Part shown: piece by piece, positions 7,943-22,671 of the stretch
Layout of the letters: every line of letters starts with the position of its first letter
How positions within the stretch are numbered: position 1 is the stretch's first letter
Source of the DNA: Brachybacterium epidermidis
GTDB taxonomy: Bacteria; Actinomycetota; Actinomycetes; Actinomycetales; Dermabacteraceae
Direction of reading: 5' to 3'
Length of the DNA: 64,000 bases
Assembly: GCF_015209585.1 (NCBI RefSeq)
Contig: NZ_JADEYR010000003.1
Location: 1 to 64,000, forward strand
Notes under the pieces: model-generated
The model's database searches: none
What the model saw: the letters and a program-made list of their open reading frames with translations, nothing else
What the model was told of the DNA's origin: nothing
Translations under genes and position numbers: made by a program

Positions 7943-9679
7943 GTGATACTGCTTCGCCTCATCCTGAGGGCGCTCAAGCCGTACCTGCCGTGGGTGCTGC
8001 TGGTGGTGCTGTTCCAGATCATCGGCGTCATGGCCGCGCTGTACCTGCCCACCATCAACGCCGACATCATCGACGAGGGCGTGGCCAAGGCCGACATCCC
8101 CACCATCTGGCGCCTGGGCTGGATCATGACCGCCGTGTCCTTCGGGAACATCTTGGCGCTGGTGGCCGCGAACTACTTCAGCGCCCGCTCCGCGATGGGT
8201 GTGGGCCGCGATCTGCGCTCGCGCGTGTTCGCCCAGGTGCAGAGCTTCTCCCCGCGGGAGATGAGCGAGTTCGGCACCCCCTCGCTGATCACCCGCAACA
8301 CCAATGACGTGCAGCAGGTGCAGCTGCTGATCTTCTTCGGCCTGAACTTCCTGGTCCAGGCCCCGGTCACCGGCGTCGGCGGGGTGATCCTGGCGCTCAG
8401 TGTGGAGCCGGGGATGGCCTGGCTGATCGCCGTGATGGTCCCGGTGATGCTGGTCAGCGTCGGCTTCCTGATCCTCAAGGCCGCGCCGATGTTCCGCCAG
8501 ATGCAGGAGAAGATCGACCGCATCAACGGCGTGCTGCGCGAGCAGATCACCGGCATCCGCGTGCTGCGGGCCTTCGTGCGGGAGGAGCGCGAGCGTGAGC
8601 GCTACGCCGAGGTGAACTTCGAGCTCACCGACCTGAACCGGCGCATCGGCCTGCTGATGATCCTGATCAACCCGATCATCATGTTCATCATCAACATCTC
8701 CAGCGTGCTGGTGCTGGCCGTGGCCGCGCCCCGCATCGATGCCGGGCAGATGGAGATCGGCTCGATCACCGCGTTCATCGCCTACCTGATCCAGATCCTG
8801 ATCGCGGTGATGATGGCGACCTTCATGACGATGATGATCCCGCGCGCGATGGTCTCCTCCGAGCGCATCACCACGGTGCTCGAGACCGATACCAGCGTGG
8901 TGCAGCGCACCGACGGGCTGCGCGACATCCAGGGCCCGGTCGAGCTCACCTTCGAGGACGTCTCCTTCACCTACCCCGGCGCGGAGAAGCCCGTGCTGCA
9001 GGACATCTCCTTCACCGCCCGGGCCGGTCAGACCGTCGCCATCATCGGCGGCACCGGTGCCGGCAAGACCAGCCTGCTGAACCTGGTGCCGCGCCTGGTG
9101 GACGTCACCGAGGGCAGCGTCAGGCTCAACGGCCACGACGTGCACGAGCTGCACGCCCAGGTGCTGTGGGACCGCGTTGGCCTGGTGCCGCAGCGGCCGT
9201 ACCTGTTCTCCGGCACCGTCGCCTCCAACCTGCGCTTAGGCAACCCGAACGCGACCGACGAGGAGCTGTGGCACGCCCTCACCATCGCCCAGGGGCGCGA
9301 CTTCGTGGCCGCCATGCCGCAGCAGCTGGACTCCCCGATCGCCCAGGGTGGCACCAACGTCTCCGGCGGACAGCGGCAGCGCCTGTGCATCGCCCGCGCC
9401 CTGGTGGCCCGGCCCTCCCTGTTCCTGTTCGACGACTCCTTCAGCGCCCTGGACCTCACCACCGATGCGAAGCTGCGCCGAGCCCTGGAGCCCGAGACGC
9501 GCGACGCCCTGGTGCTGGTGGTCGCCCAGCGCGTCACCACCATCACCTCCGCTGATCTGATCCTGGTGCTGGACCACGGCAGGATCGTGGACCGCGGCAC
9601 CCACGCAGAGCTGCTGGAGAGCTCGGAGACGTACCGCGAGATCGTGCGCTCCCAGGGCGTCGAGGAGGAGGTGGCCTGA
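7943..9679 (+). CDS. ABC exporter, half-transporter with degenerate ATPase site
   Basis: 578 residues from the GTG at 7943, chosen because GGAAGGAG sits just upstream and the protein then begins directly with the membrane domain. The longer frame from 7718 only translates the repeats. Six membrane helices precede an NBD with Walker A GGTGAGKTS (near 9050) and signature VSGGQRQR. Walker B is LFDDSFSALD (Asp for the catalytic Glu), and the switch region is AQRVTT (Gln for His). It is therefore the catalytically weak half of a heterodimer with the next gene, whose start overlaps this stop by one base. The same asymmetry is seen in the exporter at 1-3733. Substrate unknown. Confidence 0.93.
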   Translation: MILLRLILRALKPYLPWVLLVVLFQIIGVMAALYLPTINADIIDEGVAKADIPTIWRLGWIMTAVSFGNILALVAANYFSARSAMGVGRDLRSRVFAQVQSFSPREMSEFGTPSLITRNTNDVQQVQLLIFFGLNFLVQAPVTGVGGVILALSVEPGMAWLIAVMVPVMLVSVGFLILKAAPMFRQMQEKIDRINGVLREQITGIRVLRAFVREERERERYAEVNFELTDLNRRIGLLMILINPIIMFIINISSVLVLAVAAPRIDAGQMEIGSITAFIAYLIQILIAVMMATFMTMMIPRAMVSSERITTVLETDTSVVQRTDGLRDIQGPVELTFEDVSFTYPGAEKPVLQDISFTARAGQTVAIIGGTGAGKTSLLNLVPRLVDVTEGSVRLNGHDVHELHAQVLWDRVGLVPQRPYLFSGTVASNLRLGNPNATDEELWHALTIAQGRDFVAAMPQQLDSPIAQGGTNVSGGQRQRLCIARALVARPSLFLFDDSFSALDLTTDAKLRRALEPETRDALVLVVAQRVTTITSADLILVLDHGRIVDRGTHAELLESSETYREIVRSQGVEEEVA

Positions 9680-11808
9680 TGACCGCGTCAGACAAGACCC
9701 CCGCGAAGGACCGCCGCAGGAACCGTCGGAAGGACCATGACGCGACGCCCGGGGGCTCCCCCGACGTGCCCACCACCGCGCCTGTCGTCGCCGGCGACGA
9801 GGCCGCCGAGGCCGAGGAGATCGCCAGCGAGAAGGCCGCCGAACGGGGGCTGCGCCCCGGCCAGAGCGCCAAGAACTTCTGGCCCTCCGCCAAGCGACTG
9901 GTCCGCGAGATCGGCCCGGAGCGCAAGTACCTGTACGCCGCGATCCTGATCGGCTTCGTCTCGGTGGGGCTGTCCGTGGTGGGGCCGAAGATCCTGGGTC
10001 GCGCCACCGACATCATCTTCACCGGGCTGATCTCCCGGGAGATGCCGCCGGGAGCCTCGAAGCAGGAGATCATCGACGGTCTGCGCGCTTCGGGTGAGGA
10101 CCAGTTCGCCGAGATGCTCACCGGCATGGAGCTCACCCCCGGGCAGGGCATCGACTTCACCTCCCTGTACCAGGTGCTGGGCCTGGCGGTGGGCCTGTTC
10201 GTGCTCTCGGCGCTGCTGATGTGGCTGCAGGGCCTGGCCCTGAACCGGATCCTGGTGCGGATGGTCTACCGCCTGCGCCGCGAGGTCGAGGAGAAGCTGC
10301 ACCGCCTGCCGCTGGCCTACTTCGACCGGATGAAGCGCGGGGAGATCCTCTCCCGCGTCACCAACGACATCGACAACATCCAGAACACCCTGATGAACAC
10401 CGTCACGGGCCTGGTCAACTCGATCCTCACCGTGATCGGCGTGCTGGTCATGATGTTCACCATCTCCTGGCAGCTGTCGCTGATCGCGCTGGCCGTGATC
10501 CCGGTGGCGCTGCTGATCACCGGGGTGGTGGGCAAGAAGGCCCAGCAGCTGTTCGCCCAGCAGTGGGACGCCACGGGCGTGGTGGGCGCCGAGGTCGAGG
10601 AGGCCTTCACCGGCCACGACCTGGTCACCGTGTTCGGTCGCCGCGATCAGGTGGGCGAGCGGTTCGAGGAGCGCAACGAGGCCTTGTTCAAGGCCACCTT
10701 CGGCGCCCAGTTCATCTCCTCCCTGATCATGCCGCTGATGATGTTCGTGGGGAACCTCAGCTACGTGGCGGTGGCGATCGTGGGCGGCCTGCGAATCGTG
10801 CAGGGTCAGATCACCCTGGGCGACGTGCAGGCGTTCATCCAGTACTCCCGCCAGTTCACCCAGCCGCTGTCGCAGGTGGCGTCGATGGCCACCATGCTGC
10901 AGTCCGGTGTGGCCAGCGCCGAGCGCGTCTTCGAGCTGATGGACGCCACGGAGCAGGAGCCTGAGACCGAGAAGGAGGGCGCTGCGGCGGGCATCCGCGA
11001 GGGCCGCGTGGAGTTCGAGCACGTGCGCTTCTCCTACAGCCCCGACCGCGAGCTGATCCGCGACCTGTCCCTGGTGGCCGACCCCGGTCACACGGTGGCG
11101 ATCGTGGGCCCCACGGGCGCCGGCAAGACCACCCTGGTGAACCTGGTGATGCGGTTCTACGAGGTCGACGGCGGCCGCATCACGATCGACGGCATCGACA
11201 TCCGCGACCTCACCCGCGACCAGCTCCGCTCCCGCACCGGCATGGTGCTGCAGGACACCTGGCTGTTCAAGGGCACCCTGATGGAGAACATCCGCTACGG
11301 CCGCCTGGACGCCACCGACGAAGAAGTGATCGAGGCGGCCCGCGCCACCCACGTCGACGACTTCGTGCGCCAGCTGCCTGAGGGCTACGAGACCGTGGTG
11401 GACGACGACGGCACCTCGCTCTCGGCCGGTGAGAAGCAGCTGTTGACCATCGCTCGCGCCTTCCTGGCCCGCCCCAGCCTGCTGATCCTGGACGAGGCCA
11501 CCTCCAGCGTGGACACCCGCACCGAGGTGCTGGTGCAGAACGCGATGAACCGCCTGCGCGAGGGCCGCACCTCCTTCGTGATCGCCCACCGCCTCTCCAC
11601 CATCCGCGATGCGGATCTGATCCTGGTGATGGAGGACGGCGACATCGTCGAGCAGGGCAACCATGACCAGCTGCTCGAGCAGGGCGGCGCCTACGCGCGC
11701 CTGTACCGCTCGCAGTTCGAGGGCGCCGCCACGGACCTGGACGCCGAGGACGCTACCGCCGATGAGGAGCCTGCCACCACCACAGGTGGCATGTCGATGG
11801 GGTTCTGA
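9679..11808 (+). CDS. ABC exporter, half-transporter with canonical Walker B/H-loop
   Basis: 709 residues. An N-terminal hydrophilic, charged extension of about 75 residues precedes the membrane domain, which is longer than usual for the family. Between TM1 and TM2 there is an extended loop of about 50 residues (10020-10170). The NBD has Walker A GPTGAGKTT (near 11107), signature LSAGE in place of LSGGQ, Walker B ILDEATSSVD with the catalytic Glu, and IAHRLST with the switch His. It complements the subunit encoded just upstream. The C-terminal tail is acidic (about the last 30 residues). Family knowledge suggests drug, lipid or peptide export; no substrate is visible in the context. Confidence 0.93.
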   Translation: MTASDKTPAKDRRRNRRKDHDATPGGSPDVPTTAPVVAGDEAAEAEEIASEKAAERGLRPGQSAKNFWPSAKRLVREIGPERKYLYAAILIGFVSVGLSVVGPKILGRATDIIFTGLISREMPPGASKQEIIDGLRASGEDQFAEMLTGMELTPGQGIDFTSLYQVLGLAVGLFVLSALLMWLQGLALNRILVRMVYRLRREVEEKLHRLPLAYFDRMKRGEILSRVTNDIDNIQNTLMNTVTGLVNSILTVIGVLVMMFTISWQLSLIALAVIPVALLITGVVGKKAQQLFAQQWDATGVVGAEVEEAFTGHDLVTVFGRRDQVGERFEERNEALFKATFGAQFISSLIMPLMMFVGNLSYVAVAIVGGLRIVQGQITLGDVQAFIQYSRQFTQPLSQVASMATMLQSGVASAERVFELMDATEQEPETEKEGAAAGIREGRVEFEHVRFSYSPDRELIRDLSLVADPGHTVAIVGPTGAGKTTLVNLVMRFYEVDGGRITIDGIDIRDLTRDQLRSRTGMVLQDTWLFKGTLMENIRYGRLDATDEEVIEAARATHVDDFVRQLPEGYETVVDDDGTSLSAGEKQLLTIARAFLARPSLLILDEATSSVDTRTEVLVQNAMNRLREGRTSFVIAHRLSTIRDADLILVMEDGDIVEQGNHDQLLEQGGAYARLYRSQFEGAATDLDAEDATADEEPATTTGGMSMGF

Positions 11809-11851
11809 GCCGACGGGCGGATCGCCGCTCGCGTCCCTGGTTGCGGGTTCA

Positions 11852-11913
11852 GCGCGCCCGCATCGCGCCCCGCGCGTCCCTGGCGCGCCCGCATCGCGCC
11901 CCGCGCGTCCCTG
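11852..11913. repeat. two perfect 31-bp tandem copies
   Basis: Copies at 11852-11882 and 11883-11913, in the spacer downstream of the exporter operon. A third, degenerate start follows. No hairpin followed by a T-run was recognised in the 209-base gap. Confidence 0.8.
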
Positions 11914-12005
11914 GCCTGCCCGCGGCGCTCCGCGCTCGCGTCGAAGTGGCATGTTAAGCCTCTCTCATTCCACGGAGAGTTCATAGAAGTATGCGCATGC
12001 ATGCA

Positions 12006-12017
12006 TAAGCTTGCTGC
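12006..12017 (+). promoter_or_regulatory. candidate -10 box for a leaderless transcript
   Basis: TAAGCT at 12006-12011 fits the actinobacterial -10 consensus TANNNT and lies six bases before the GTG at 12018. No Shine-Dalgarno sequence precedes that GTG. The surroundings are unusually AT-rich, with a palindromic ATGCATGCAT just upstream. No clear -35 box is visible, so this is tentative. Confidence 0.4.
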
Positions 12018-12941
12018 GTGAGCACCCCCAGACGGACCCTGCTGCGAGCCCTGCCGGCCGCAGTCCTCGTCGGCACCGCGGCGTCGGTGACCGTTGGCTG
12101 CACCCGGGCGAGTGAGCGCCTCGATGCCGAGTCGAACACCGTGCCCGAGGTGGACCTCAGCGGGATCGAGCGCCAGGACGACCTGGCTGCGATGGTTCCC
12201 GCCCCGATCCGCGAGCGCGGAGAGCTCATCAACGGTGCCGCCCTGAACTACGCCCCCGGCGAGTTCGTCGGCTCCGATGGGGAGGCCGTCGGGTACGACA
12301 TGGACGTGCTCGCCGCCATCGGACAGGTGCTGGGCCTGTCCACCCGCACCGAATCAGCGGTGTTCGCGCAGATCATCCCCTCGATCGGCTCCAAGTACGA
12401 CGTGGGGATCTCCAGCTTCACCATCAACGCCGAACGGCTCGAGAACGTCAGCATGGTCTCCTACTTCCAGGCCGGCATCGCCTATGCCGTGCGCACCGGG
12501 AACCCCTACGACATCGACCCGGCCGACCTGTGCGGCAAGCGCGTCGCCCTCCAGGTGGGCACCTACCAGGAGGAGCTGTCCCTGGAACGCTCCGACCAGT
12601 GCCGTGATGCCGGCAGGCCCGGGTACGACATGCTGGCCTACGTCTCCAACTCGGACGCGGCAACCAATGTCGCCGGCGGCAAGGGGGACATCCTCATGGC
12701 CGACTCCCCGGTGACCGCCTACGCAGTGGCGCGCTCGCGCGGCACTCTCGAGCAGATCGGCGACATCGAGGAATCTGCGCTCAACGGCATCGTCGTGCCC
12801 AAGGACCAGCCCGAGTTCGCCGAGGCCCTGCGGGGGGCCGTCCAGTACCTCATCGACTCCGGCCACCTCCGCGAGATCTTCGCGGCCTGGGGCAACGAGA
12901 ACGGCATGCTCGAACGAGCAGAAGTGGACCCCCAACCGTGA
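12018..12941 (+). CDS. ABC transporter substrate-binding lipoprotein (polar amino acid family)
   Basis: 307 residues. The N-terminus has an RR pair, a hydrophobic segment and a lipobox ending TVGC (about residue 28), so it should be a lipoprotein anchored outside the membrane. The body follows the periplasmic-binding-protein-3 pattern (GYDMDVLAAIGQVLGL, KYDVGISSFTINAERLENV, CGKRVALQVGTYQEE, ALNGIVVPKDQPEFAEAL), as in glutamate/glutamine/cystine binding proteins. It heads an operon with a permease and an ATPase gene, both of which show frame damage. The exact ligand is not readable. If those partners are truly broken, this protein would be an orphan binding protein. Confidence 0.88.
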   Translation: MSTPRRTLLRALPAAVLVGTAASVTVGCTRASERLDAESNTVPEVDLSGIERQDDLAAMVPAPIRERGELINGAALNYAPGEFVGSDGEAVGYDMDVLAAIGQVLGLSTRTESAVFAQIIPSIGSKYDVGISSFTINAERLENVSMVSYFQAGIAYAVRTGNPYDIDPADLCGKRVALQVGTYQEELSLERSDQCRDAGRPGYDMLAYVSNSDAATNVAGGKGDILMADSPVTAYAVARSRGTLEQIGDIEESALNGIVVPKDQPEFAEALRGAVQYLIDSGHLREIFAAWGNENGMLERAEVDPQP

Positions 12942-13928
12942 GCAGCACCGTCTCCGACGCCCCTGGCCTGCGCGACGCCGCCGGCAACGAAGTCACCCCC
13001 ATCCGTGCCCGCCCCGCCCCGCGCCCGGGGACCTGGATCGCCGCGGTGGTGGTGGGTCTGCTGACCCTCGCCCTGGTGAACTTCCTGATCACCAATCCGG
13101 TGTTCGAGTGGGACACGGTGGCGACCTACATCCTGGACCATCCTGGACGTCAAGGTGGTCCAGGGCGTCGGCTGGACGCTCCTGCTGACGCTGCTGTCGA
13201 TGGTGCTGGGCACCGTCGTGGCGCTGACCGCCGCCATCATGCGCCGCAGCGACAACCCCGTGCTGCGCGCGGTGAGCTGGGGGTACATCTTCGTGTTCCG
13301 CGGCATCCCGGTGTACACCCAGCTGGTGTTCTGGGGCCTGTTCACCGTCATCGTCCCCAAGATCGCCGTGGGCGTGCCCTTCGGGCCGGAGCTGTTCTCC
13401 TTCTCCACCCGCGACCTGGTCACCGCCTTCTGGGCCGCCGTGATCGGCCTGGGGCTGAACGAGGGCGCCTACCTGGCCGAGATCATCCGCTCCGGACTGA
13501 ACTCGGTGGACCGCGGCCAGGCCGAGGCCGCACGCGCCCTGGGCATGAGCGAGGCGAAGATCCTGCGCAGGATCATCGTGCCCCAGGCGATGCGGGTGAT
13601 CGTGCCGCCCCTGGGCAACGAGACCATCGGCATGCTGAAGACCACCTCGCTGGTGCTGGCGGTCCCGTTCACCCTGGATCTCACCTTCGCCACCAACGCC
13701 ATCGCCAACAAGCTGTTCACCCCGATCCCGCTGCTGATCGTGGCCGCACTGTGGTACCTCGCGATCACCAGCGTGCTGATGGTGGGCCAGCACTACCTGG
13801 AGAAGTACTTCGGTCGCGGCTTCGACGACCGCACCCCTGCGCGCCACGGCGGCCGCGGCGCCCGTCAGGCCGCCGTGAACCGCGCCGGCACCACCCCGAA
13901 CGACCCGCTCCCGGAGGTGGAGCTGTGA
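12938..13928 (+). pseudogene. amino acid ABC transporter permease, frameshifted by a 10-bp duplication
   Basis: The start (ATGA overlap with the binding-protein gene is replaced by GTGA at 12938) gives an N-terminus and TM1 (WIAAVVVGLLTLALVNFLI). At 13129-13148 the 10-mer CATCCTGGAC occurs twice in tandem; removing one copy joins VATYILD directly to VKVVQGVGWTLLL in the frame that runs to 13928. The downstream frame carries the HisM/GlnP-type permease body, including the EAA loop region (NEGAYLAEIIRSGLNSVDRGQ, EAARALGM). As written, the long frame shifts into noncoding composition after about 68 residues. An internal GTG at 13155 could start a 257-residue protein lacking TM1. Either a real mutation or an assembly artefact. 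Confidence 0.85.
13129..13148. repeat. perfect 10-bp tandem duplication inside the permease gene
   Basis: CATCCTGGAC at 13129-13138 and again at 13139-13148. Deleting either copy restores the permease frame exactly. Confidence 0.92.
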
Positions 13929-14991
13929 TGACCCAGGATCCCCGCAACGCCCCTGCTCCTACGGCGAACCGCGCCGACGCCGCGCCCGTTCCTACTGGGG
14001 CCCGCGCCGATGCCGCGCCCGTTCCTACTGGGGCCCGCGCCGATGCCGCGCCCGTTCCTACCGGGGCCCGCGCCGATGCCGCGCCCGTTCCTACCGGGGC
14101 CCACGCCGACGCCGCGCCCGTTCCTACTGGGGCCCGCGCCGACGCCTCACCCGCCCCCACCGGGAACCGCGCCGATGTCTCGCCCGCTCTACCGGGGCCC
14201 GCGCCGATGTCTCGCCCGCCCCCACCCCGCTGGTCGCGGTCACCGACCTGCACAAGAGCTTCGGTGACCTGCACGTCCTGAAGGGCTGCTCCCTGGAGGT
14301 GGCGCCGGGGGAGGTGTGTGTGCTGGTCGGCCCCTCGGGCTCGGGCAAGTCCACCCTGTTGCGCTGCATCAACCAGCTGGAGAGCCCGACCGCCGGTGAG
14401 GTGCGGATCGACGGCGAGCTGCAGGGCTACCAGTCCGAGCCGCTGGCCGACGGCCGCTGGCAGCGACTGTCCAACAAGCAGATCGCCGCCCAGCGCTCCC
14501 GCATAGGCATGGTGTTCCAGCGCTTCCACCTGTTCCCCCACCTCACAGCTCTCGGCAACGTGATCGAGGCGCCGATGCAGGTGCTGGGTACGCCGCGGGC
14601 ACAGGCGGAGAGCGATGCGCGCGAGCTGCTGGACCGCGTGGGACTGGCCGATCGTGCCGATCACTACCCGGCCGAGCTCTCCGGCGGGCAGCAGCAGCGC
14701 GTGGCCATCGCCCGTGCCATGGCGATGAAGCCCGAGCTGATGCTGTTCGACGAGCCCACCAGTGCCCTGGACCCTGAGCTGGTCTCCGAGGTGCTCGCCG
14801 TGCTGAAGGACCTGGCGCGGGAGGGCATGACGATGGTGGTGGTCACCCACGAGATGGGCTTCGCCCGCGAGGTGGCCGACCAGGTGGTGTTCATGGACGA
14901 CGGGCGAATCGTGGAGCAGGGACCGCCCCAGCAGGTGATCGACGCGCCCCGCTCCGATCGGCTGCGGGAGTTCATCGCCTCGGTGCTGTGA
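13928..14991 (+). pseudogene. amino acid ABC transporter ATPase with repeat-rich N-terminus and a 1-nt frameshift
   Basis: The gene appears to start at ATG 13928 (four bases overlap with the permease end), encoding MTQDPRN followed by eight 11-residue repeats of the [11 protein letters not shown] type. In the eighth repeat (about 14187-14190) one base is missing relative to the other units, which moves the frame into that of the ATPase. From there the protein is a standard GlnQ-type ATPase: LHKSFG, Walker [10 protein letters not shown], signature [14 protein letters not shown], Walker [14 protein letters not shown], switch VVTHEMGFA. The only start codon in the ATPase frame is GTG 14299, which would delete the first beta strands. 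Repeat slippage, phase variation or sequence error could explain this. Confidence 0.8.
13949..14211 (+). repeat. eight in-frame 33-bp units (11-residue repeat)
   Basis: Units encode [11 protein letters not shown], then [11 protein letters not shown] (three copies), [33 protein letters not shown] and a last unit lacking one base. They form a low-complexity N-terminal extension on the ATPase gene, which is unusual for this family. Near-identical DNA between units suggests recent expansion. Confidence 0.9.
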
Positions 14992-15116
14992 TGTCGTGAC
15001 CCGGCTCTATGGCGAACGACGGGATGCATATGAGGCGTCGCTGACAGTTTCAGCGCTCCGGTGACGAAATCGTCCCGTTGTTCGTCACTTGCGAAGCCCG
15101 CGATCTCGCTCAGCCC

Positions 15117-16568: not shown

Positions 16569-18851
16569 TCACCAGTCGGTGATGCGCCAGCGGTTCTTCT
16601 TGGCCACCGAGAACAGCCCCAGGTCCGGGGAGATCGCGGTGGGGGAGCCCACCAGGGACAGCCACGCGGCATCGGCGTGGGAGTCGCCGTAGCCGTAGGA
16701 GGCCTTCAGGTCTGCGCCATGGCGGTCGGCGTACTTGCGCAGCCAGTTGGCGCGGGCCTCGTCCACCAGCGGGGGAGTGGCGAGGTAGCCGGTCATCACG
16801 CCGTCGGCCCCGGCGTCCATGTGGGTGGCCACCACGTCGTCGAACAGGTCGGCCAGGGGCTCGACCAGCACGTCCAGGGCGCCGGTGACCAGCACGGCGC
16901 GGTGCCCGGCGGCGCGGTGGCGCTCGATCACCTCGAGCGCCTCGGGGCGGATGGAGGCGCGGATCTTCCGGCCCAGCTCACCGTTCATCAGCTCCCGCAG
17001 GTCCTGCTCGCGGTAGCCCTCGTACCGGCGGTTGACCAGGCGGATCAGCTCGGAGCGGTCACGCTGCTCGGCGCGCAAGTAACCGGGCAGGGAGGTGAGC
17101 ACTCCGCCGATCTCCGCCGGCCACACGCGGCGCGGGCGGGTGGCGCGCACCACCGCGAAGTACTGCTGGACGATGTTGGTGGCGATCACCGTCCCATCCA
17201 GGTCGAACACGGCCAGGGCCGCCGGGTCGCTGGACAGCTCCGGGGCGGGGCGCTCGGCCCGCTTGCGCTGGGCGGCCTTGGCGCGGGAGTACGCCTTGGT
17301 GAGCTCGGTGACCGCGGGCAGGTGCAACTGCTGGAAGTAGTCGCGCCAGTTGATCTCGGTGACGTCGAAGTCGTGCTTCTCCAGGAACTGCGCCGGGAGC
17401 TCCTTGCGCAGGGCCCGGGTGTTCGCGTCGTCGAACACCATCTCGGTCTTGGTGTACTGGCGGTACAGCTCGATGTACTTGCGCAGCGTGGTGAGCCCGT
17501 TGGTGGCCTTGTGCAGGCTGGAGGTCCACTCGCGGGTGCGGCGGGAGGCCGGCAGGTAGGCCACGGCCTTCTGGCCGGCCTTGGCGGCGATCTCCTTGGC
17601 GCGGAAGCGCTGCTCGACCATCTCCACGGCCGGGAAGCTCCACTCGGGCACCACGATCGGGCGGCCCTTGTCGTCCTCCAGGGGCTTGGTCACGAAGTAC
17701 TCGCGCACGGCGGAGACCATCTCGTGGAACGGCAGCGGGTTCGAGGCGCCGGAGACCACCTGGAAATAGGCGTCGTCGCCGCGGCGGGAGACGTCCTGGG
17801 TGGCCAGGGCCACGATCACGTTGACCACGAAGTCCACTGGGATGATGTCCAGGATGGAATCGGCCAGGCCCGGGAACTCCTGCAGCATGCCGCGGCCGTA
17901 CGCCATGATCAGCGGATCGGCCACCTTGTAGCCGTCGATCCAGCCGGGGTAGGGGCTGTGCAGGGCGGACTCGATGATGGAGGGGCGCACGAAGGAGACC
18001 CGGTGGCCGGCGCCCGCCCACAGGTCCTCCGCCACGCGCTCGGCCATGGCCTTGGTGAAGGTGTAGATGTCGGTCCAGCCCACGGACTGGGCGCGGGTGC
18101 GGCCGAAGTCGACCAGGCGCTCGTCCACCCAGGCACGGCGGGCGGTCTCGGCGGCGGCGGCCACGGCCTTGGGGCCCATGCGGCCGTCGCGCAGGCGGGC
18201 GGTGCGCATCTGGGCGCGCAGCGTCTCGGGTCGACGCGACTCCGCCTCGACGCGGGCACGGGCATCCTGGGCGGCCTCGTACTCGCGGCGCCAGTCGACG
18301 TCGTGGACCAGGCGCCCCTCCTGGCGCAGGCCCTTGGAGATGCCGCCCACGTACGCGGTGGAGACGTGGATGACGTGCGGGTCCTGCCCGGAGGCCAGCA
18401 GCGCCTCGTACAGGTTGCGGGCCCCGCCCACGTTGGTGCGGAAGGCCTCGTCGATCGGCGGATCGAAGGAGACCGAGGAGGCGGAGTGGATCACCACGTC
18501 GTACGGCTCGGTCAGGGCCGGCAGGTCGGTGAGGTCGCCCTCCAGGGCCGACACCCGCGCGGCGAAGATCTCCCTGACCTCGTCCTTGCCGACCTTCTCG
18601 GCCCAGGTGGAGAACACGGGCTTGCGCAGCAGCTGCTCGAGGCGGGCCTGCCCGCTGACGCTGCCCTTGGGGCGCACCACGGCGGTGACGTGCACGTCCT
18701 CGGTGGTCTCCAGCAGGCACTGCAGCACCGCCTGTCCCAGGAAGCCGGTGACGCCGGTCAGGAGGATCCGACGACCCCCGGTGCGAGCATCGCCGGCGTG
18801 CGGAGAGGTGCTCTCGACGCTCTCGTCGGCGGCGGGAGTGGTGTTGTTCAT
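16569..18851 (-). CDS. fatty acyl-CoA reductase fused to HAD-IB phosphatase-like domain
   Basis: 760 residues. Residues about 27-500 form a FAR/male-sterile NAD(P)-binding domain plus C-terminal FAR region: GVTGFLGQAVLQ nucleotide-binding loop, SSVSFD, and YTFTK (YxxxK catalytic pair). Residues about 535-760 form a HAD-IB (SerB-like) domain with FDLDGT, VLVTGALD and YGYGDSHADAAW. The reductase half should turn acyl-CoA into fatty alcohol. The phosphatase half could act on a phospholipid intermediate; its substrate is unknown. The gene is divergent from the SDR-PlsC-AGPS-like operon across 253 bases, a layout that suggests one ether-lipid locus. Length and both active-site sets look intact. 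Confidence 0.85.
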   Translation of the reverse strand: MNNTTPAADESVESTSPHAGDARTGGRRILLTGVTGFLGQAVLQCLLETTEDVHVTAVVRPKGSVSGQARLEQLLRKPVFSTWAEKVGKDEVREIFAARVSALEGDLTDLPALTEPYDVVIHSASSVSFDPPIDEAFRTNVGGARNLYEALLASGQDPHVIHVSTAYVGGISKGLRQEGRLVHDVDWRREYEAAQDARARVEAESRRPETLRAQMRTARLRDGRMGPKAVAAAAETARRAWVDERLVDFGRTRAQSVGWTDIYTFTKAMAERVAEDLWAGAGHRVSFVRPSIIESALHSPYPGWIDGYKVADPLIMAYGRGMLQEFPGLADSILDIIPVDFVVNVIVALATQDVSRRGDDAYFQVVSGASNPLPFHEMVSAVREYFVTKPLEDDKGRPIVVPEWSFPAVEMVEQRFRAKEIAAKAGQKAVAYLPASRRTREWTSSLHKATNGLTTLRKYIELYRQYTKTEMVFDDANTRALRKELPAQFLEKHDFDVTEINWRDYFQQLHLPAVTELTKAYSRAKAAQRKRAERPAPELSSDPAALAVFDLDGTVIATNIVQQYFAVVRATRPRRVWPAEIGGVLTSLPGYLRAEQRDRSELIRLVNRRYEGYREQDLRELMNGELGRKIRASIRPEALEVIERHRAAGHRAVLVTGALDVLVEPLADLFDDVVATHMDAGADGVMTGYLATPPLVDEARANWLRKYADRHGADLKASYGYGDSHADAAWLSLVGSPTAISPDLGLFSVAKKNRWRITDW

Positions 18852-19091
18852 GGGATCCCTCGATGGACGGGTTCGGCGGTGCGGGCGCGGTCGATCCCGT
18901 GCCGGGACGGGGTGCCCGGAGCGGATCCGCCTGCCCAGGCGATTCCACCGCGAACAGGCGTTCCTGTGCTGATCGGCGGCGGTCGCAGCGCAGGCCCGCC
19001 GTGCTCCCGAGATGGCCCCCGGGGCGGTTCTGCGATGTTCCCGTGCTGGTCAGCGGCTTGTCGTCATGCCCTGGTCAGGGCCTCGCTAGTG

Positions 19092-19104
19092 TATCGTAGC
19101 CGCC
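19092..19104 (+). promoter_or_regulatory. candidate -10 box for a leaderless SDR transcript
   Basis: TATCGT at 19092-19097 fits TANNNT and ends seven bases before ATG 19105. No Shine-Dalgarno sequence is present. A -35 element was not convincing. Confidence 0.4.
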
Positions 19105-19881
19105 ATGCACAGGGCCCTGATCACCGGCGGCACCGCGGGCATCGGGGCCGCTTTCGCCACTGCTTTCGCCAAGCGCGGCGTCCCCCTTGTCCTGGTCGCG
19201 CGCGATTCCGCACGCCTCGAGGAGTTCGCCGCACAGCTGCGCGCCGAGCACGGGGTGGAGGTGGAGACGATGGTCGCCGACCTCGTGGAGCGCGACGCCC
19301 AGCAGCGCGTGGCCGACCGCCTCGCTGCCGACGCTGATCCGGTCGACGTGCTCGTGAACAACGCAGGTTTCTCCGTGCGCGCGAGCCTGCTGGAGGAGGA
19401 CCTGGACGAGCACGACCGCGGCTTCGAGGTGATGGTGCGGGCCGTCCTCAAGCTGGGCGGCGCGGCGGGCCGGGCCATGAGCGCGCGCGGCCGCGGCTGG
19501 ATCATCAACGTGGGCTCCGTCAACGCCCTGATCACCCAGAACAACTACTCCGCCATCAAAGCATGGGTGGGCAACTACTCCGAGTCCCTGGGCGTGCAGC
19601 TGGCAGGCACGGGCGTCTCCGTCACCGCACTGATGCCTGGCTGGGTGCACACCGAGTTCCACTCCCGCGCCGGCATCAAGGGCTCCTCGATCCCTGACTT
19701 CCTGTGGCTGGATGCGGACCGCCTGGTGGAGGAGTGCCTGGCGGACGTGGCACGCGGCAAGCCCGTGAGCATCCCCAGCACCCGCTGGAAGCTGATCGCC
19801 GCGGTGCTGCGCAGCACCCCCCGCGGGCTCGTGGCCAGGCTCAGTGCCCTGCTGTCCCACCGTCGCAACCGGGAGCGCTGA
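19105..19881 (+). CDS. short-chain dehydrogenase/reductase
   Basis: 258 residues, classical SDR: NAD(P)-binding TGGTAGIG at residues 8-15, NNAGF at about 90, catalytic Ser in NVGSVNA and YSAIK (YxxxK) at about 152-156. The C-terminal region (WKLIAAVLRSTPRGLVARL) resembles SDRs that act on lipid-linked substrates. It opens an operon with a PlsC acyltransferase two bases downstream and an alkyl-DHAP synthase homologue. By position it could reduce 1-alkyl-DHAP to 1-alkyl-glycerol-3-phosphate, the step done by DHRS7B in animals; that is inference from the neighbours. Confidence 0.85.
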   Translation: MHRALITGGTAGIGAAFATAFAKRGVPLVLVARDSARLEEFAAQLRAEHGVEVETMVADLVERDAQQRVADRLAADADPVDVLVNNAGFSVRASLLEEDLDEHDRGFEVMVRAVLKLGGAAGRAMSARGRGWIINVGSVNALITQNNYSAIKAWVGNYSESLGVQLAGTGVSVTALMPGWVHTEFHSRAGIKGSSIPDFLWLDADRLVEECLADVARGKPVSIPSTRWKLIAAVLRSTPRGLVARLSALLSHRRNRER

Positions 19882-19882
19882 G

Positions 19883-20968
19883 ATGAGGGACGAGGCCGAC
19901 GGCCGCACCCCCGGCGACGATCCGACCCCCGGGGACGCCCTGCCCGAGGGCACGGAGGATGCCGCCGTGGGCGGCCCCGAGCAGTCCGCGGACGACAGCT
20001 CCGCGCGCGAGCAGTCCGCCTTCGAGCGCACCGTGCGCGAGATGCTCGCCCGCGACAGGACCGCCAAGGCCGACGAGAAGGCCGCCAGGGCTGAGGAGAA
20101 GGCATCGAAGGCCGAGGCCAAGGCTGATGAGAAGGCCGCGAAGGCCGAGGCCAGGGCGGAGGCGAAGGCCGCCAAGGTGCAGGCGAAGGCCGCCGAGGAG
20201 CAGCGTGCCCGCCCGGTGCCGTCCCTGTCGGCCCGCTCCCGTGCCGAGGGCTGGGACGAGCCCGAGGGGGATCTCGCCAAGTACCGCTCCCATTGGCGGT
20301 CGGCGGTGCGCTTCGTCCTGCAGCGCGTGATCTTCAAGGCCGTGGTGCGCAGCGCCGTCACCCCGAAGTCGGTGGTGGCCCGCCGCGTGCGCACCGTGCG
20401 CGGCCCGTACGTGCTGGTCGCCAACCACACCAGCCACGTCGACGCGCCGATGATCGCGCTCAGCCTCCCGTGGAGCCAGGCGAAGTTCCTCTCCACAGGC
20501 GTTGCTGCCGACTACTTCTTCAACGTCTGGTACCGCCGCTTCTTCGTGCGCTGGATGTTCAACGCCTTCCCGGTCGACCGCGGCGGCTCCCGCAAGCACT
20601 CCGGCACCTCCCGGAACCTGCTGCGCTCGGGCGTGCCGATCCTGGTGTTCCCCGAGGGGGGTCGCCAGAAGGACGGGCGGATGAAGGACTTCAAGCCCGG
20701 TGGCGCGGCGCTCGCCATCAGCGTGGGAGTGCCGGTGATCCCGGCCGCCATCGTCGGCGGCTACGAGGCGATGCCCAAGGGCCGCAACTGGCCCGCGCCC
20801 GGCCGCCCGCCGGTCACCGTGGTGTTCGGCGACCCGATGATCGCCGACGAGGGCGAGACTGCGGTGGAGTTCTCCACCCGCATCCATGAGCGCGTCAAGG
20901 ACCTGTACGACGACCACTACGAGGAAGTCCTGGGCGGCGCCGCCCAGGGCGAGGAAGGACCGGCATGA
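19883..20968 (+). CDS. PlsC-type 1-acylglycerol-3-phosphate acyltransferase with charged N-terminal extension
   Basis: 361 residues from ATG 19883, one base after the SDR stop. The acyltransferase domain covers about residues 140-345: NHTSHVD (HX4D motif), FPVDRGG, VFPEGGR and PVIPAAI. The first 135 residues are unusual: an acidic disordered head, then a Lys/Ala/Glu heptad-like run (KADEKAARAEEKA and relatives) likely to form a long helix or coiled coil. Expected reaction: acyl transfer to a lysophospholipid or DHAP/alkyl-G3P at the inner membrane face. The stop overlaps the next gene's ATG. It supplies an acyl-transfer step in the proposed ether-lipid set. Confidence 0.87.
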   Translation: MRDEADGRTPGDDPTPGDALPEGTEDAAVGGPEQSADDSSAREQSAFERTVREMLARDRTAKADEKAARAEEKASKAEAKADEKAAKAEARAEAKAAKVQAKAAEEQRARPVPSLSARSRAEGWDEPEGDLAKYRSHWRSAVRFVLQRVIFKAVVRSAVTPKSVVARRVRTVRGPYVLVANHTSHVDAPMIALSLPWSQAKFLSTGVAADYFFNVWYRRFFVRWMFNAFPVDRGGSRKHSGTSRNLLRSGVPILVFPEGGRQKDGRMKDFKPGGAALAISVGVPVIPAAIVGGYEAMPKGRNWPAPGRPPVTVVFGDPMIADEGETAVEFSTRIHERVKDLYDDHYEEVLGGAAQGEEGPA

Positions 20969-22671
20969 ACTCTCCGCTGAGTGCCAAGGACGTCAAGCGG
21001 CACCGGTGGTGGGGCTGGGGCCTGGACGACGTCACCTTCAACTGGCGCAACAAGCCCGGCTTCGCACCGCTGGCCCAGGACGTGATCGGCATGGACCTGC
21101 ACACCATGCCGGACCCGGTCACCCCCGAGCTGAGCGAGCACACCGTGCCGCCCGGTCGCCTGGGCGAGGACACCCGCGCCGCCCTGGTGGACGTGGTGGG
21201 CCCGGAGAACCTGCTGGACGACGACGAGTTCCGCGTCATCCACTCCTTCGGCCGCTCCCTTCCTGACCTGTTCCGCGCCCGCAACGGTCACTTCGAGCGC
21301 CTGGTGGACGCGGTGGTCTACCCCGGCAGCGAGGAGGAGATCGCCGCGGTGCTGCGGATCGTGCTGGAGCAGGACCTGGTGCTGATCCCCTACGGCGGCG
21401 GCTCCTGCATCTCCGGCTCGGTCACCCCGGACGTCGCCGAGCAGCGCCCGATCCTCACCATGAACCTGGGGCGCATGCGGAAGGTCCTGGAGATCGACGA
21501 CACCGCGGGCCTGGCCCGGGTGGAGGCCGGCGTGTACGGCCCTGATCTGGAGGAGCAGCTGAACGAACTGGGGTGGACCATGGGCCACTTCCCGGACTCC
21601 TTCACCTACTCCACGCTGGGCGGCTGGGCGGCCACTCGCTCCACTGGAATGCAGTCCGACAAGTACGGCGACATCGAGCAGATCGTGCGCGGCATGCGCG
21701 TGGTCCACCCCGAGGGGATCATCCGCACCAAGGCCGTGCCCGGGCGGGACAGCGGCCCCAGCGTGCACGAGATGATCATGGGCAGCGAGGGCCGCCTGGG
21801 CGTGATCTCCGAGTGCACCGTCCAGGTGCACCGCACCCCGCCGGTGCGCCAGGTCATCGCCTACATGTTCCCGGACTGGGAGCACGGAATCCGCGGCATG
21901 CACGCGATCGCCCGCTCCGAGGTGCACCCCACCTTCGCCCGGCTCTCCGACGGGCCCGAGACCCGCTTCAGCCTGGCCCTGGTCAAGGCGCCCGAGTCCA
22001 CCAAGTCCAAGGTGATGGCCAAGGTGCAGGACGGCCTGTTCGCCTACCTGCGCTCCAAGGGCTGGGACACCACGCAGGAGATGTGCATCTCCTACGTGTG
22101 CTTCGAGGGCACCAAGCAGACCGTCGAGCGGGAGAAGGCGATCGTCAAGAAGATCGTGGCGAGCAATGGCGGCATCAGCCTGGGCGCGGGCCCCGGCGCG
22201 GTGTACGACCAGAAGAAGTTCGACACCCCGTACCTGCGCGACTTCCTGCTGAACTACAAGGTGTTCGGCGACGTCTGCGAGACCGGCGCCAGCTGGTCGA
22301 ACCTCAACGAGGTCCACTCCAAGGTCTACGACGCCTACTACGGGGTGCTGGCCGAGCACGACTCCCAGGGCTTCATGTTCTGCCACATGTCGCACAGCTA
22401 CCACGGGGGCGCCTGCCTGTACTTCACCTTCGCGCTGCCGTACACGGAGGACTCCACGGCGCTGGCGAAGTACTACGACGCCAAGAACGCCGTGCAGCAG
22501 ACCTTCGCGGACCTGGGCTCCCCGGTGTCCCACCACCACGGTGTGGGCACCGAGCACCGGCCGTGGATGGTCGAGGACATCGGCGAGGTCGGTGCGCGCG
22601 TGGTGCGCGGGCTGTTCGCCGACAACGATCCCGGCCGCAACCTCAACCCCGGCAAGGTGCTCGAGCCCTGA
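20965..22671 (+). CDS. alkyldihydroxyacetonephosphate synthase homologue (FAD-linked)
   Basis: 568 residues. FAD_binding_4 (about 90-270) followed by an FAD-linked oxidase C-terminal domain. Several segments match AGPS rather than glycolate/lactate oxidases: RWWGWG at the N-terminus, IPYGGGSCISGS in the FAD loop, PDSFTYSTLGGWAATRSTGM, IMGSEGRLGVISE, and the C-terminal triple-His SHHHGVG that AGPS uses in catalysis. AGPS swaps the acyl group of acyl-DHAP for a fatty alcohol, forming the ether bond. The nearby fatty acyl-CoA reductase would provide the alcohol. Some annotation pipelines would call this only 'FAD-binding oxidoreductase'. The motif set makes the AGPS assignment likely, though activity is untested here. 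Confidence 0.85.
   Translation: MNSPLSAKDVKRHRWWGWGLDDVTFNWRNKPGFAPLAQDVIGMDLHTMPDPVTPELSEHTVPPGRLGEDTRAALVDVVGPENLLDDDEFRVIHSFGRSLPDLFRARNGHFERLVDAVVYPGSEEEIAAVLRIVLEQDLVLIPYGGGSCISGSVTPDVAEQRPILTMNLGRMRKVLEIDDTAGLARVEAGVYGPDLEEQLNELGWTMGHFPDSFTYSTLGGWAATRSTGMQSDKYGDIEQIVRGMRVVHPEGIIRTKAVPGRDSGPSVHEMIMGSEGRLGVISECTVQVHRTPPVRQVIAYMFPDWEHGIRGMHAIARSEVHPTFARLSDGPETRFSLALVKAPESTKSKVMAKVQDGLFAYLRSKGWDTTQEMCISYVCFEGTKQTVEREKAIVKKIVASNGGISLGAGPGAVYDQKKFDTPYLRDFLLNYKVFGDVCETGASWSNLNEVHSKVYDAYYGVLAEHDSQGFMFCHMSHSYHGGACLYFTFALPYTEDSTALAKYYDAKNAVQQTFADLGSPVSHHHGVGTEHRPWMVEDIGEVGARVVRGLFADNDPGRNLNPGKVLEP

Follow-up and report, generated by a model that had tools for sequence, protein, structure and literature searches.

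Two routes to ether lipids have been described against which the present locus can be set: the peroxisomal pathway of animals and Dictyostelium, which relies on AGPS, FAR1 and DHRS7B, and the anaerobic ester-reduction route of PlsA/PlsR and Ger, which likewise yields bacterial ether lipids, including those of some Actinobacteria (PMC9702350, PMC11868695). An animal-like arrangement has also been published for Myxococcus xanthus, in whose MXAN_1676-1674 operon AGPS adjoins a protein that combines FAR1-like with GNPAT-like domains, and in which ether lipids fell only slightly when the AGPS gene was disrupted (PMC9131029). That review presents plasmalogens in aerobic bacteria as an exception seen in myxobacteria (PMC9131029), and a second attributes bacterial plasmalogens to the anaerobic pathway (PMC9702350). 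Judged by titles and the beginnings of abstracts, the literature searched contained no lipid data for Brachybacterium, and among the matches listed nothing dealt directly with the cluster or with ether lipids in Brachybacterium, Brevibacterium, Kocuria or Streptomyces.

The window (the whole stretch of DNA analysed, 64,000 nucleotides from Brachybacterium epidermidis) holds four adjacent genes which, judging from their sequences, probably constitute a dedicated alkyl-ether glycerolipid module. The cluster has in common with the animal pathway an AGPS homologue with its catalytic residues, a FAR with NAD_binding_4 and Sterile domains and an SDR; it differs in that the genes form one bacterial cluster, the FAR is fused to a HAD domain, no GNPAT was identified and the SDR corresponds to DHRS7B by class only. 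It also differs from M. xanthus, where FAR is fused to an acyltransferase instead of HAD and where MXAN_1674 is a protein of the NAD-epimerase type. The clustering described in the earlier note is real, but an operon of AGPS, FAR and acyltransferase had already been published for M. xanthus (PMC9131029).

Table 1. Features of the four-gene locus, with positions in the window.
Feature	Position	Strand	Description
FAR-HAD gene	16569..18851	-	760 aa; fatty acyl-CoA reductase (NAD_binding_4 + Sterile) + C-terminal HAD-IB domain
FAR-SDR divergent intergenic region	18852..19104	.	253 bases
SDR gene	19105..19881	+	adh_short; proposed alkyl-DHAP reductase
PlsC-type acyltransferase gene	19883..20968	+	PF01553; proposed DHAP acyltransferase or alkyl-G3P acyltransferase
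AGPS homologue gene	20965..22671	+	568 aa; FAD_binding_4 + FAD-oxidase_C

In the pathway that we infer, from its substrates to the final lipids, a fatty alcohol would be produced by the HAD-fused FAR through reduction of a long-chain acyl thioester. The cluster acyltransferase would most likely carry out the GNPAT step and form 1-acyl-DHAP; otherwise it would acylate alkyl-G3P. AGPS would then replace the acyl chain with the fatty alcohol by way of an FAD-DHAP adduct, and the resulting 1-O-alkyl-DHAP would be reduced by the SDR to 1-O-alkyl-G3P, feeding ordinary phospholipid synthesis.

Open reading frame coordinates and Pfam matches bear out the earlier description of the four genes and their positions, including the length of the shared divergent region and the near-contact of the three plus-strand genes: the ATG of the PlsC-type gene follows the SDR stop after 1 base (an alternative GTG start lies at 19844) and the ATG of the AGPS gene overlaps the stop of the PlsC-type gene. 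No sigma-70-like consensus site was found in the divergent region, and scanning the region for promoters and terminators yielded no signal above shuffles.

All four genes were found together in 72 of the 80 named loci, from Streptomyces to Kocuria, that were chosen by AGPS similarity alone, and the set is therefore not a chance grouping; synteny in other Dermabacteraceae, which the earlier note had proposed to look for, was borne out by this comparison. Of the eight remaining loci, three are truncated where a contig ends, one is without FAR and four, from Propionibacteriaceae, are without PlsC only. At the level of genomes (394, kinship ignored), FAR-HAD was found in 33/37 class genomes with the ~50%-identity AGPS clade versus 43/357 others, and by genus code in all nine clade-A genera; the four clade-A genomes with no FAR-HAD match are all draft assemblies in 560 to 880 contigs. 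In the two f25 neighbourhoods examined (genomes L054 and L055), a clade-A AGPS stands without the other cluster genes alongside. A single contig of a viral contig set carried an AGPS match, at 67% identity, and in the 6.7 kb of it examined AGPS alone matched of the window genes tested.

The AGPS homologue, single copy with one match in its own genome, matched Dictyostelium AGPS (PDB 2uuu, E 1.1e-102) and guinea-pig AGPS (4bby, E 6.1e-85) over most of its length, the next family in the PDB appearing only at E 1.4e-20. Three residues important for catalysis in the Dictyostelium enzyme, R352, R447 and Y508 (PMC3509576), align with R326, R425 and Y486 of the window protein, the numbering of the paper differing from the chain positions by a constant 3. 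These residues and H523-525 are kept in 18/18 clade-A and 20/20 clade-B AGPS rows, whereas T217 (guinea-pig T309) is variable, being Thr in 17/18 and 14/20 rows, respectively. That the protein is instead a GlcD or D-lactate-type oxidase or dehydrogenase in a coincidental neighbourhood is barely credible: both kinds of protein share the FAD_binding_4 and FAD-oxidase_C domains and the glcD model TIGR00387 does match, but at 127.6 bits, far under its cut-off of 567.9, and the gap in E values, the AGPS residues, the tree and the synteny all argue against it. Four of six GlcD-like paralogues differ at all three aligned positions (R326, R425 and Y486) and in the other two, L166 and L167, only R425 differs; in a 47-row tree, a branch with support 96/84 separates the 41 AGPS rows from these six paralogues. 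A GlcD/D-lactate oxidase identity was rejected on the E values, residues and tree, and the grouping with lactate/glycolate oxidases that the earlier note had named as contrary evidence was not seen. Its identification of an AGPS homologue with a triple-His block holds; on this comparison the FAD protein is a member of the AGPS family with conserved catalytic residues, and it is predicted to perform the acyl-to-alcohol exchange.

The reductase, for which Pfam gives NAD_binding_4, Sterile and HAD domains, matched a fatty acyl-CoA reductase structure (PDB 7eoz, E 8e-46, residues 23-514), and among the named FAR matches compared the TGxxGxxG glycines are kept in 75/75 and the Tyr and Lys of YxxxK in 76/76. 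These features assign it to the FAR family, with an alcohol rather than an aldehyde as its predicted product; the earlier note had recognised the reductase correctly but overlooked the C-terminal HAD-IB domain (residues 545-742; TIGR01490, 109.7 bits, cut-off 98.3). Should this domain free alkylglycerol, the cluster might yield other ether lipids (a glycolipid, alkylglycerol or wax-like storage ethers) in place of membrane phospholipids, a reading which we consider improbable. It would agree with the invariance of the nucleophile Asp and of the GDxxxD Asps (76/76 named matches each) and with the fact that elbB of the M. xanthus elbA-E ether-lipid operon is likewise a HAD protein (PMC9131029); however, the second motif-I Asp is retained in just 38/76, which makes phosphatase activity doubtful, and neither a glycosyltransferase nor a wax synthase family was found among 8 window proteins and 20 proteins from relatives' neighbourhoods.

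The SDR keeps Ser138, Tyr148 and Lys152 in 79/79 named matches compared. Among the matches listed (25 of 214 families) no specific model passed, the nearest in NCBIfam being mycolate_SDR at 161.1 bits (cut-off 380). Its class and its position agree with the alkyl-DHAP reductase role given to it in the earlier note, but it is from placement and class that the assignment comes, and with its classical SDR features the protein is proposed as a candidate for that role.

AGPS requires acyl-DHAP, and no GNPAT-named model was present among the Pfam and NCBIfam matches listed for the cluster acyltransferase. The earlier description of a complete clustered set is therefore too strong, although all four enzyme classes are indeed clustered, and the PlsC gene becomes the candidate for the acyl-DHAP-forming enzyme. 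The earlier note was right as to its family (PF01553), but had placed it as the sn-2 enzyme, acting on alkyl-G3P. This placement, with the same chemistry and acyl-DHAP supplied by another acyltransferase of the genome, has a substantial chance of being correct, if somewhat below even. The protein has LPAAT-like motifs, NHxSHxD and FPEG[TGS]R with some EGGR variants (His and Asp of the first in 74/74 named matches compared, Glu and Arg of FPEGxR in 75/75), and matches TIGR00530 at 57.9 bits, though the cut-off of 102.95 is not reached. Moreover, the genome encodes five PF01553 proteins, four besides that of the cluster, and has no PlsY match (8/14 control genomes match), and PlsC is missing from the four Propionibacteriaceae clusters. 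On the other hand, a general PlsC could perform the sn-2 step, while acyl-DHAP formation would be a specialised need, and the M. xanthus operon includes a GNPAT-like domain (PMC9131029).

As regards the other known routes, PF09989 (DUF2229), a domain of PlsA, had no match in the genome while 4/14 control genomes matched; the PlsA route was accordingly rejected here, as the earlier note had suggested. The vinyl ether of M. xanthus is formed via CarF, and a match to CarF/PEDS1 (PF10520) was obtained in 0/46, 0/394 and 0/12 genomes; since no control genome matched either, CarF as the desaturase is rejected only weakly.

Near the reductase, 24/80 loci encode a pair of proteins, DiA, which has diiron-type ligands, and DiB, its ligand-poor paralogue; both are also present in the Brachybacterium window genome, away from the four-gene cluster. 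DiA has six conserved ligand-type residues (E..ExxH..E..ExxH), a pattern common to soluble diiron enzymes (acyl-ACP desaturase, rubrerythrin, COQ7, AcsF), whose models it matches weakly, with scores near or under the cut-offs wherever bits are given (one rubrerythrin match, L151, 22.9 vs 22.8); unlike them, it is paired with a ligand-poor paralogue and linked to FAR/AGPS. The window genome's own DiA had no Pfam match at E 0.001, and when the DiA alignment was searched against the PDB three matches came back: a designed helix bundle, an RNA-editing protein and DesA2 (1za0, E 0.0099).

Dimethyl acetals are a signature of vinyl ethers. They have been reported in the aerobic actinobacteria Subtercola and Kineococcus rubinsiae and, for a peak whose name is ambiguous, in Frigoribacterium (PMC5945732, PMC7472656, PMC12823222). 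Frigoribacterium faeni is a species in which such an anteiso-C15 aldehyde/dimethyl acetal has been reported, whereas F. endophyticum and F. salinisoli were reported to be without the aldehyde/DMA peak. F. faeni has the four genes and DiA/DiB, is without the PlsA marker and gave no CarF match in a search lacking a positive control. It is conceivable, though rather unlikely, that aerobic actinobacteria make plasmalogens through the animal-like AGPS module and a new plasmanyl desaturase, DiA/DiB, unrelated to CarF/PEDS1 and PlsA; vinyl ethers would then be expected where DiA/DiB occurs (the window genome, Brevibacterium, Frigoribacterium and Streptomycetaceae relatives) and saturated alkyl ethers where the four genes occur alone (Dermabacter, Helcobacillus). 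Several distributions speak against a desaturase: of 39 class genomes with DiA, nine lack an AGPS match at E 1e-60 and five lack FAR-HAD (kinship ignored), while DiA is missing from 15/37 clade-A genomes (13 of them f25), from three of the nine clade-A genera by genus code, from 11/44 AGPS-ortholog Dermabacteraceae and from G016, the nearest relative by AGPS; in the f27 genome G105, a long distance separates DiA from the cluster.

The cluster provides a genetic candidate for ether lipids in many actinobacterial families, and in DiA/DiB the vinyl-ether step that is missing in aerobic actinobacteria gains a candidate that can be tested. It may also offer a compact bacterial model of a pathway whose loss in people causes RCDP.

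The identification of the fourth gene of the cluster as alkyl-DHAP synthase (AGPS), proposed in the earlier note, is supported by structure matches, catalytic residues and phylogeny. In a phmmer search against solved structures the window protein matched the AGPS of Dictyostelium (E 1.1e-102) and that of guinea pig (6.1e-85), with 35.6% and 32.1% identity, respectively, over the stretches compared, the next family being a putative oxidoreductase (1.4e-20). Residues R352, R447 and Y508, important to catalysis by the Dictyostelium enzyme (excerpt of PMC3509576), correspond to R326, R425 and Y486 with a constant offset of 3 and, like the His triplet (H523-525), are kept in 18/18 rows of clade A, the AGPS clade of about 50% identity that includes the window protein, and in 20/20 rows of clade B, a second actinobacterial clade of about 35% identity; T217 (guinea-pig T309) is less constant (17/18 and 14/20 rows). 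All three residues differ in four of six GlcD-like paralogues, while the other two, L166 and L167, retain R326, Y486 and the His triplet and carry Lys at R425. These FAD proteins of same-genus genomes (G028 and G020), about 36% identical over part of AGPS, appear to be of an intermediate type that is not clearly AGPS and not clearly GlcD. The distinction between AGPS and GlcD-like proteins was also recovered in a tree of 47 rows, in which a branch (96/84) divides 41 AGPS rows from the GlcD-like ones, the program warning of long branches for two eukaryotic rows and between both GlcD-like groups; support is weak (86/50) for placing clade A together with the eukaryotic AGPS. AGPS is single in the window's genome (3.07 Mb, completeness 99.88%), being its only AGPS-like match at E 0.001; at this locus, named Brachybacterium records come nearest to it.

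The positions previously assigned to the four genes agree with the gene coordinates found, as does the divergent reductase, which lies opposite the other genes across 253 bases. For the acyltransferase, ATG 19883, one base past the SDR stop, is a more likely start than GTG 19844, and its stop is overlapped by the AGPS ATG; because of this near-contact and overlap, SDR, acyltransferase and AGPS look like a single operon. The reductase was correctly recognized as a fatty acyl-CoA reductase (FAR), having NAD_binding_4 and Sterile domains, though the fused HAD-IB domain was missing from that account. All 76 matches compared keep the HAD nucleophile, but just half of them (38) have the second motif-I Asp; elbB of the Myxococcus xanthus elb operon is likewise a HAD (excerpt of PMC9131029). 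The catalytic Ser-Tyr-Lys of the SDR is intact in 79/79 matches compared, its top NCBIfam model being mycolate reductase (161.1 bits, under the cut-off of 380). Elsewhere in the window, seven PTG/PTA-containing units follow one another in 33-base steps within a frame located shortly upstream of the gene for an ABC ATPase.

Coordinates of the cluster and of other features mentioned in the text
Feature	Location	Coordinates	Strand	Details
Frame with PTG/PTA units	window	12938-14281		units at 13958-14190
FAR-HAD	window	16569-18851	-	760 aa; NAD_binding_4 30-345, Sterile 453-509, HAD-IB 545-742
SDR	window	19105-19881	+	
PlsC-type acyltransferase	window	19883-20968	+	
AGPS	window	20965-22671	+	
DiA/DiB-like pair	G000:C9 (window's genome)	10422-11207		L188:7417-9130
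FAR-HAD, Lar_N, PlsC, DiA cluster	L199 (G136)	7985-15026		

An AGPS orthologue was found in 44 of 47 family genomes (two partial or in pieces) and, at E 1e-60, in 138 of 394 class genomes, 37 of which constitute clade A (E 1.8e-175 or better, at least 49% identity; next best 1.5e-101). A profile search of genome contigs with the clade-A alignment confirmed 355 loci, and among the best 80 of these FAR, HAD, SDR, PlsC and AGPS occur together in 72. Grouped by record titles and family names, these comprise 23 Brachybacterium, 6 Brevibacterium, 3 Dermabacter, 1 Helcobacillus, 18 Kocuria, 4 Ruaniaceae, 4 Georgenia, 4 Jiangellaceae, 4 Streptomycetaceae, 2 Frigoribacterium and 3 others, so the synteny in other Dermabacteraceae that the earlier note proposed to look for does exist, in the Brachybacterium, Dermabacter and Helcobacillus loci. 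The eight incomplete loci are four Propionibacteriaceae without PlsC only, L145 without FAR, and three (L118, L149, L165) interrupted by contig ends. Of the full loci, 71/72 have SDR on the AGPS strand, and FAR lies opposite to AGPS in 57 of them and shares its strand in the other 15; since FAR orientation varies while the set persists, the genes have stayed together through rearrangement. FAR-HAD is present in 33/37 clade-A genomes, covering 9/9 clade-A genera by genus code, versus 43/357 other class genomes (Fisher p 1e-22, inflated by relatedness). One family, f25, accounts for 13 of the 37, and in the two f25 neighbourhoods examined (L054, L055) AGPS stands without other cluster genes alongside.

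Among 20 clade-B stretches (L060-L079), no FAR or PlsC match was found beside AGPS and two had a weak generic SDR match; a FAR-HAD match exists somewhere in 27 of the 101 class genomes whose AGPS falls outside clade A. Two records deserve separate mention: the locus of Kocuria sp. 36 (L115) is Brevibacterium-like, its AGPS being 65% identical to that of the window (about 52-55% in other Kocuria) and paired in the tree with Brevibacterium casei, which reflects either a mislabelled record or transfer; and a contig filed as viral (IMGVR_UViG_2890705261_000001) carries an AGPS gene (67% identity), possibly because the contig flanks a prophage or is host DNA that was wrongly classified.

In 24 of the 80 best loci of the contig search (23 above 200 bits and one partial, L130), the gene next to FAR or one further off encodes DiA, a protein about 264 aa long. 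All 24 also have DiB, a paralogue about 22-38% identical, and L125 has DiB without DiA. Diiron-type ligand residues are kept in DiA (E45 in 24/24; E77, H80, E141, E171 and H174 each in 23/24 aligned, the rest gaps), and several of them are lost in DiB (n=25), where position 77 is R/K/Q in 23, position 80 is never H and position 171 is K/R/T in all; judged by these residues, DiA looks like the catalytic and DiB like the non-catalytic subunit of a diiron enzyme. All 20 DiA scanned weakly matched FA_desaturase_2 and Rubrerythrin (E 0.05 or better) and 11 also COQ7; two of three scanned against NCBIfam weakly matched AcsF. DiA was found in 33/47 family genomes, all of the window's genus, and not in three other AGPS-bearing family genera. 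The window's genome has DiA adjacent to a DiB-like gene (60 bits, 29% identity) on another contig, with an HXXEE protein gene beside them; this DiA, the third of those scanned against NCBIfam, had weak encapsulin ferritin-like matches there, and at E 0.001 it matched nothing in Pfam. In a class genome with no AGPS match at E 1e-60 (G136), DiA is clustered with FAR-HAD, a PlsC-type acyltransferase and a lactate racemase-like (Lar_N) protein, possibly a different route using the same reductase.

The anaerobic PlsA route, which the earlier note had set aside, is indeed unlikely in the Brachybacterium genome, since PF09989, a domain of PlsA, is unmatched there (4/14 control genomes match). Of 14 genomes searched, 12 lack it: this one, two Frigoribacterium and one each of Brevibacterium, Kocuria, Dermabacter, Helcobacillus, Actinacidiphila, Jiangella, Phytoactinopolyspora, Georgenia and Ruania; both Propionibacteriaceae (L121, L134) have it.

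Frigoribacterium faeni AS3.2 has FAR-HAD, SDR, PlsC (two aligned pieces), AGPS, DiA and DiB, and neither PF09989 nor, in searches without a positive control, the CarF/PEDS1 desaturase family PF10520 was matched in it. Excerpts of published studies report 15:0 anteiso aldehyde/DMA (an ambiguous peak name) in aerobically grown F. adelgis D8 and mention an earlier such report for another F. faeni strain (PMC12823222), as well as dimethyl acetals in Subtercola (i-16:0 DMA 17.0% in S. vilae; PMC5945732) and in Kineococcus rubinsiae, there from GC-MS (PMC7472656). DiA/DiB are candidates for a plasmalogen desaturase, though at low probability: some class genomes carry DiA but no AGPS or no FAR, and DiA is absent from many of the genomes that have AGPS.

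AGPS-based ether lipids have been described for M. xanthus, where AGPS is clustered with FAR and acyltransferase domains (excerpt of PMC9131029), and AGPS homologues have been listed for actinobacterial and other environmental genomes (excerpt of PMC11868695). Beyond this precedent, the four-gene actinobacterial cluster, the FAR-HAD fusion and DiA/DiB were the subject of no paper among the matches listed from the open-licence PMC literature. The earlier scheme of a complete set holds for the presence of four enzymes and leaves acyl-DHAP formation as a gap. By analogy, the cluster PlsC is the natural candidate for this step, because a GNPAT-like domain sits in the M. xanthus AGPS operon (excerpt of PMC9131029), but the motifs of this PlsC resemble those of LPAAT, and none of the models it matches in Pfam and NCBIfam bears the name GNPAT. 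The window's genome encodes five PF01553 proteins and, with no PlsY (PF02660) match anywhere in it, the first glycerol-3-phosphate acylation must rest on one of these or on an unknown enzyme. In the most likely pathway, FAR would supply fatty alcohol and an acyltransferase acyl-DHAP, from which AGPS would form alkyl-DHAP and the SDR, in turn, alkyl-G3P.
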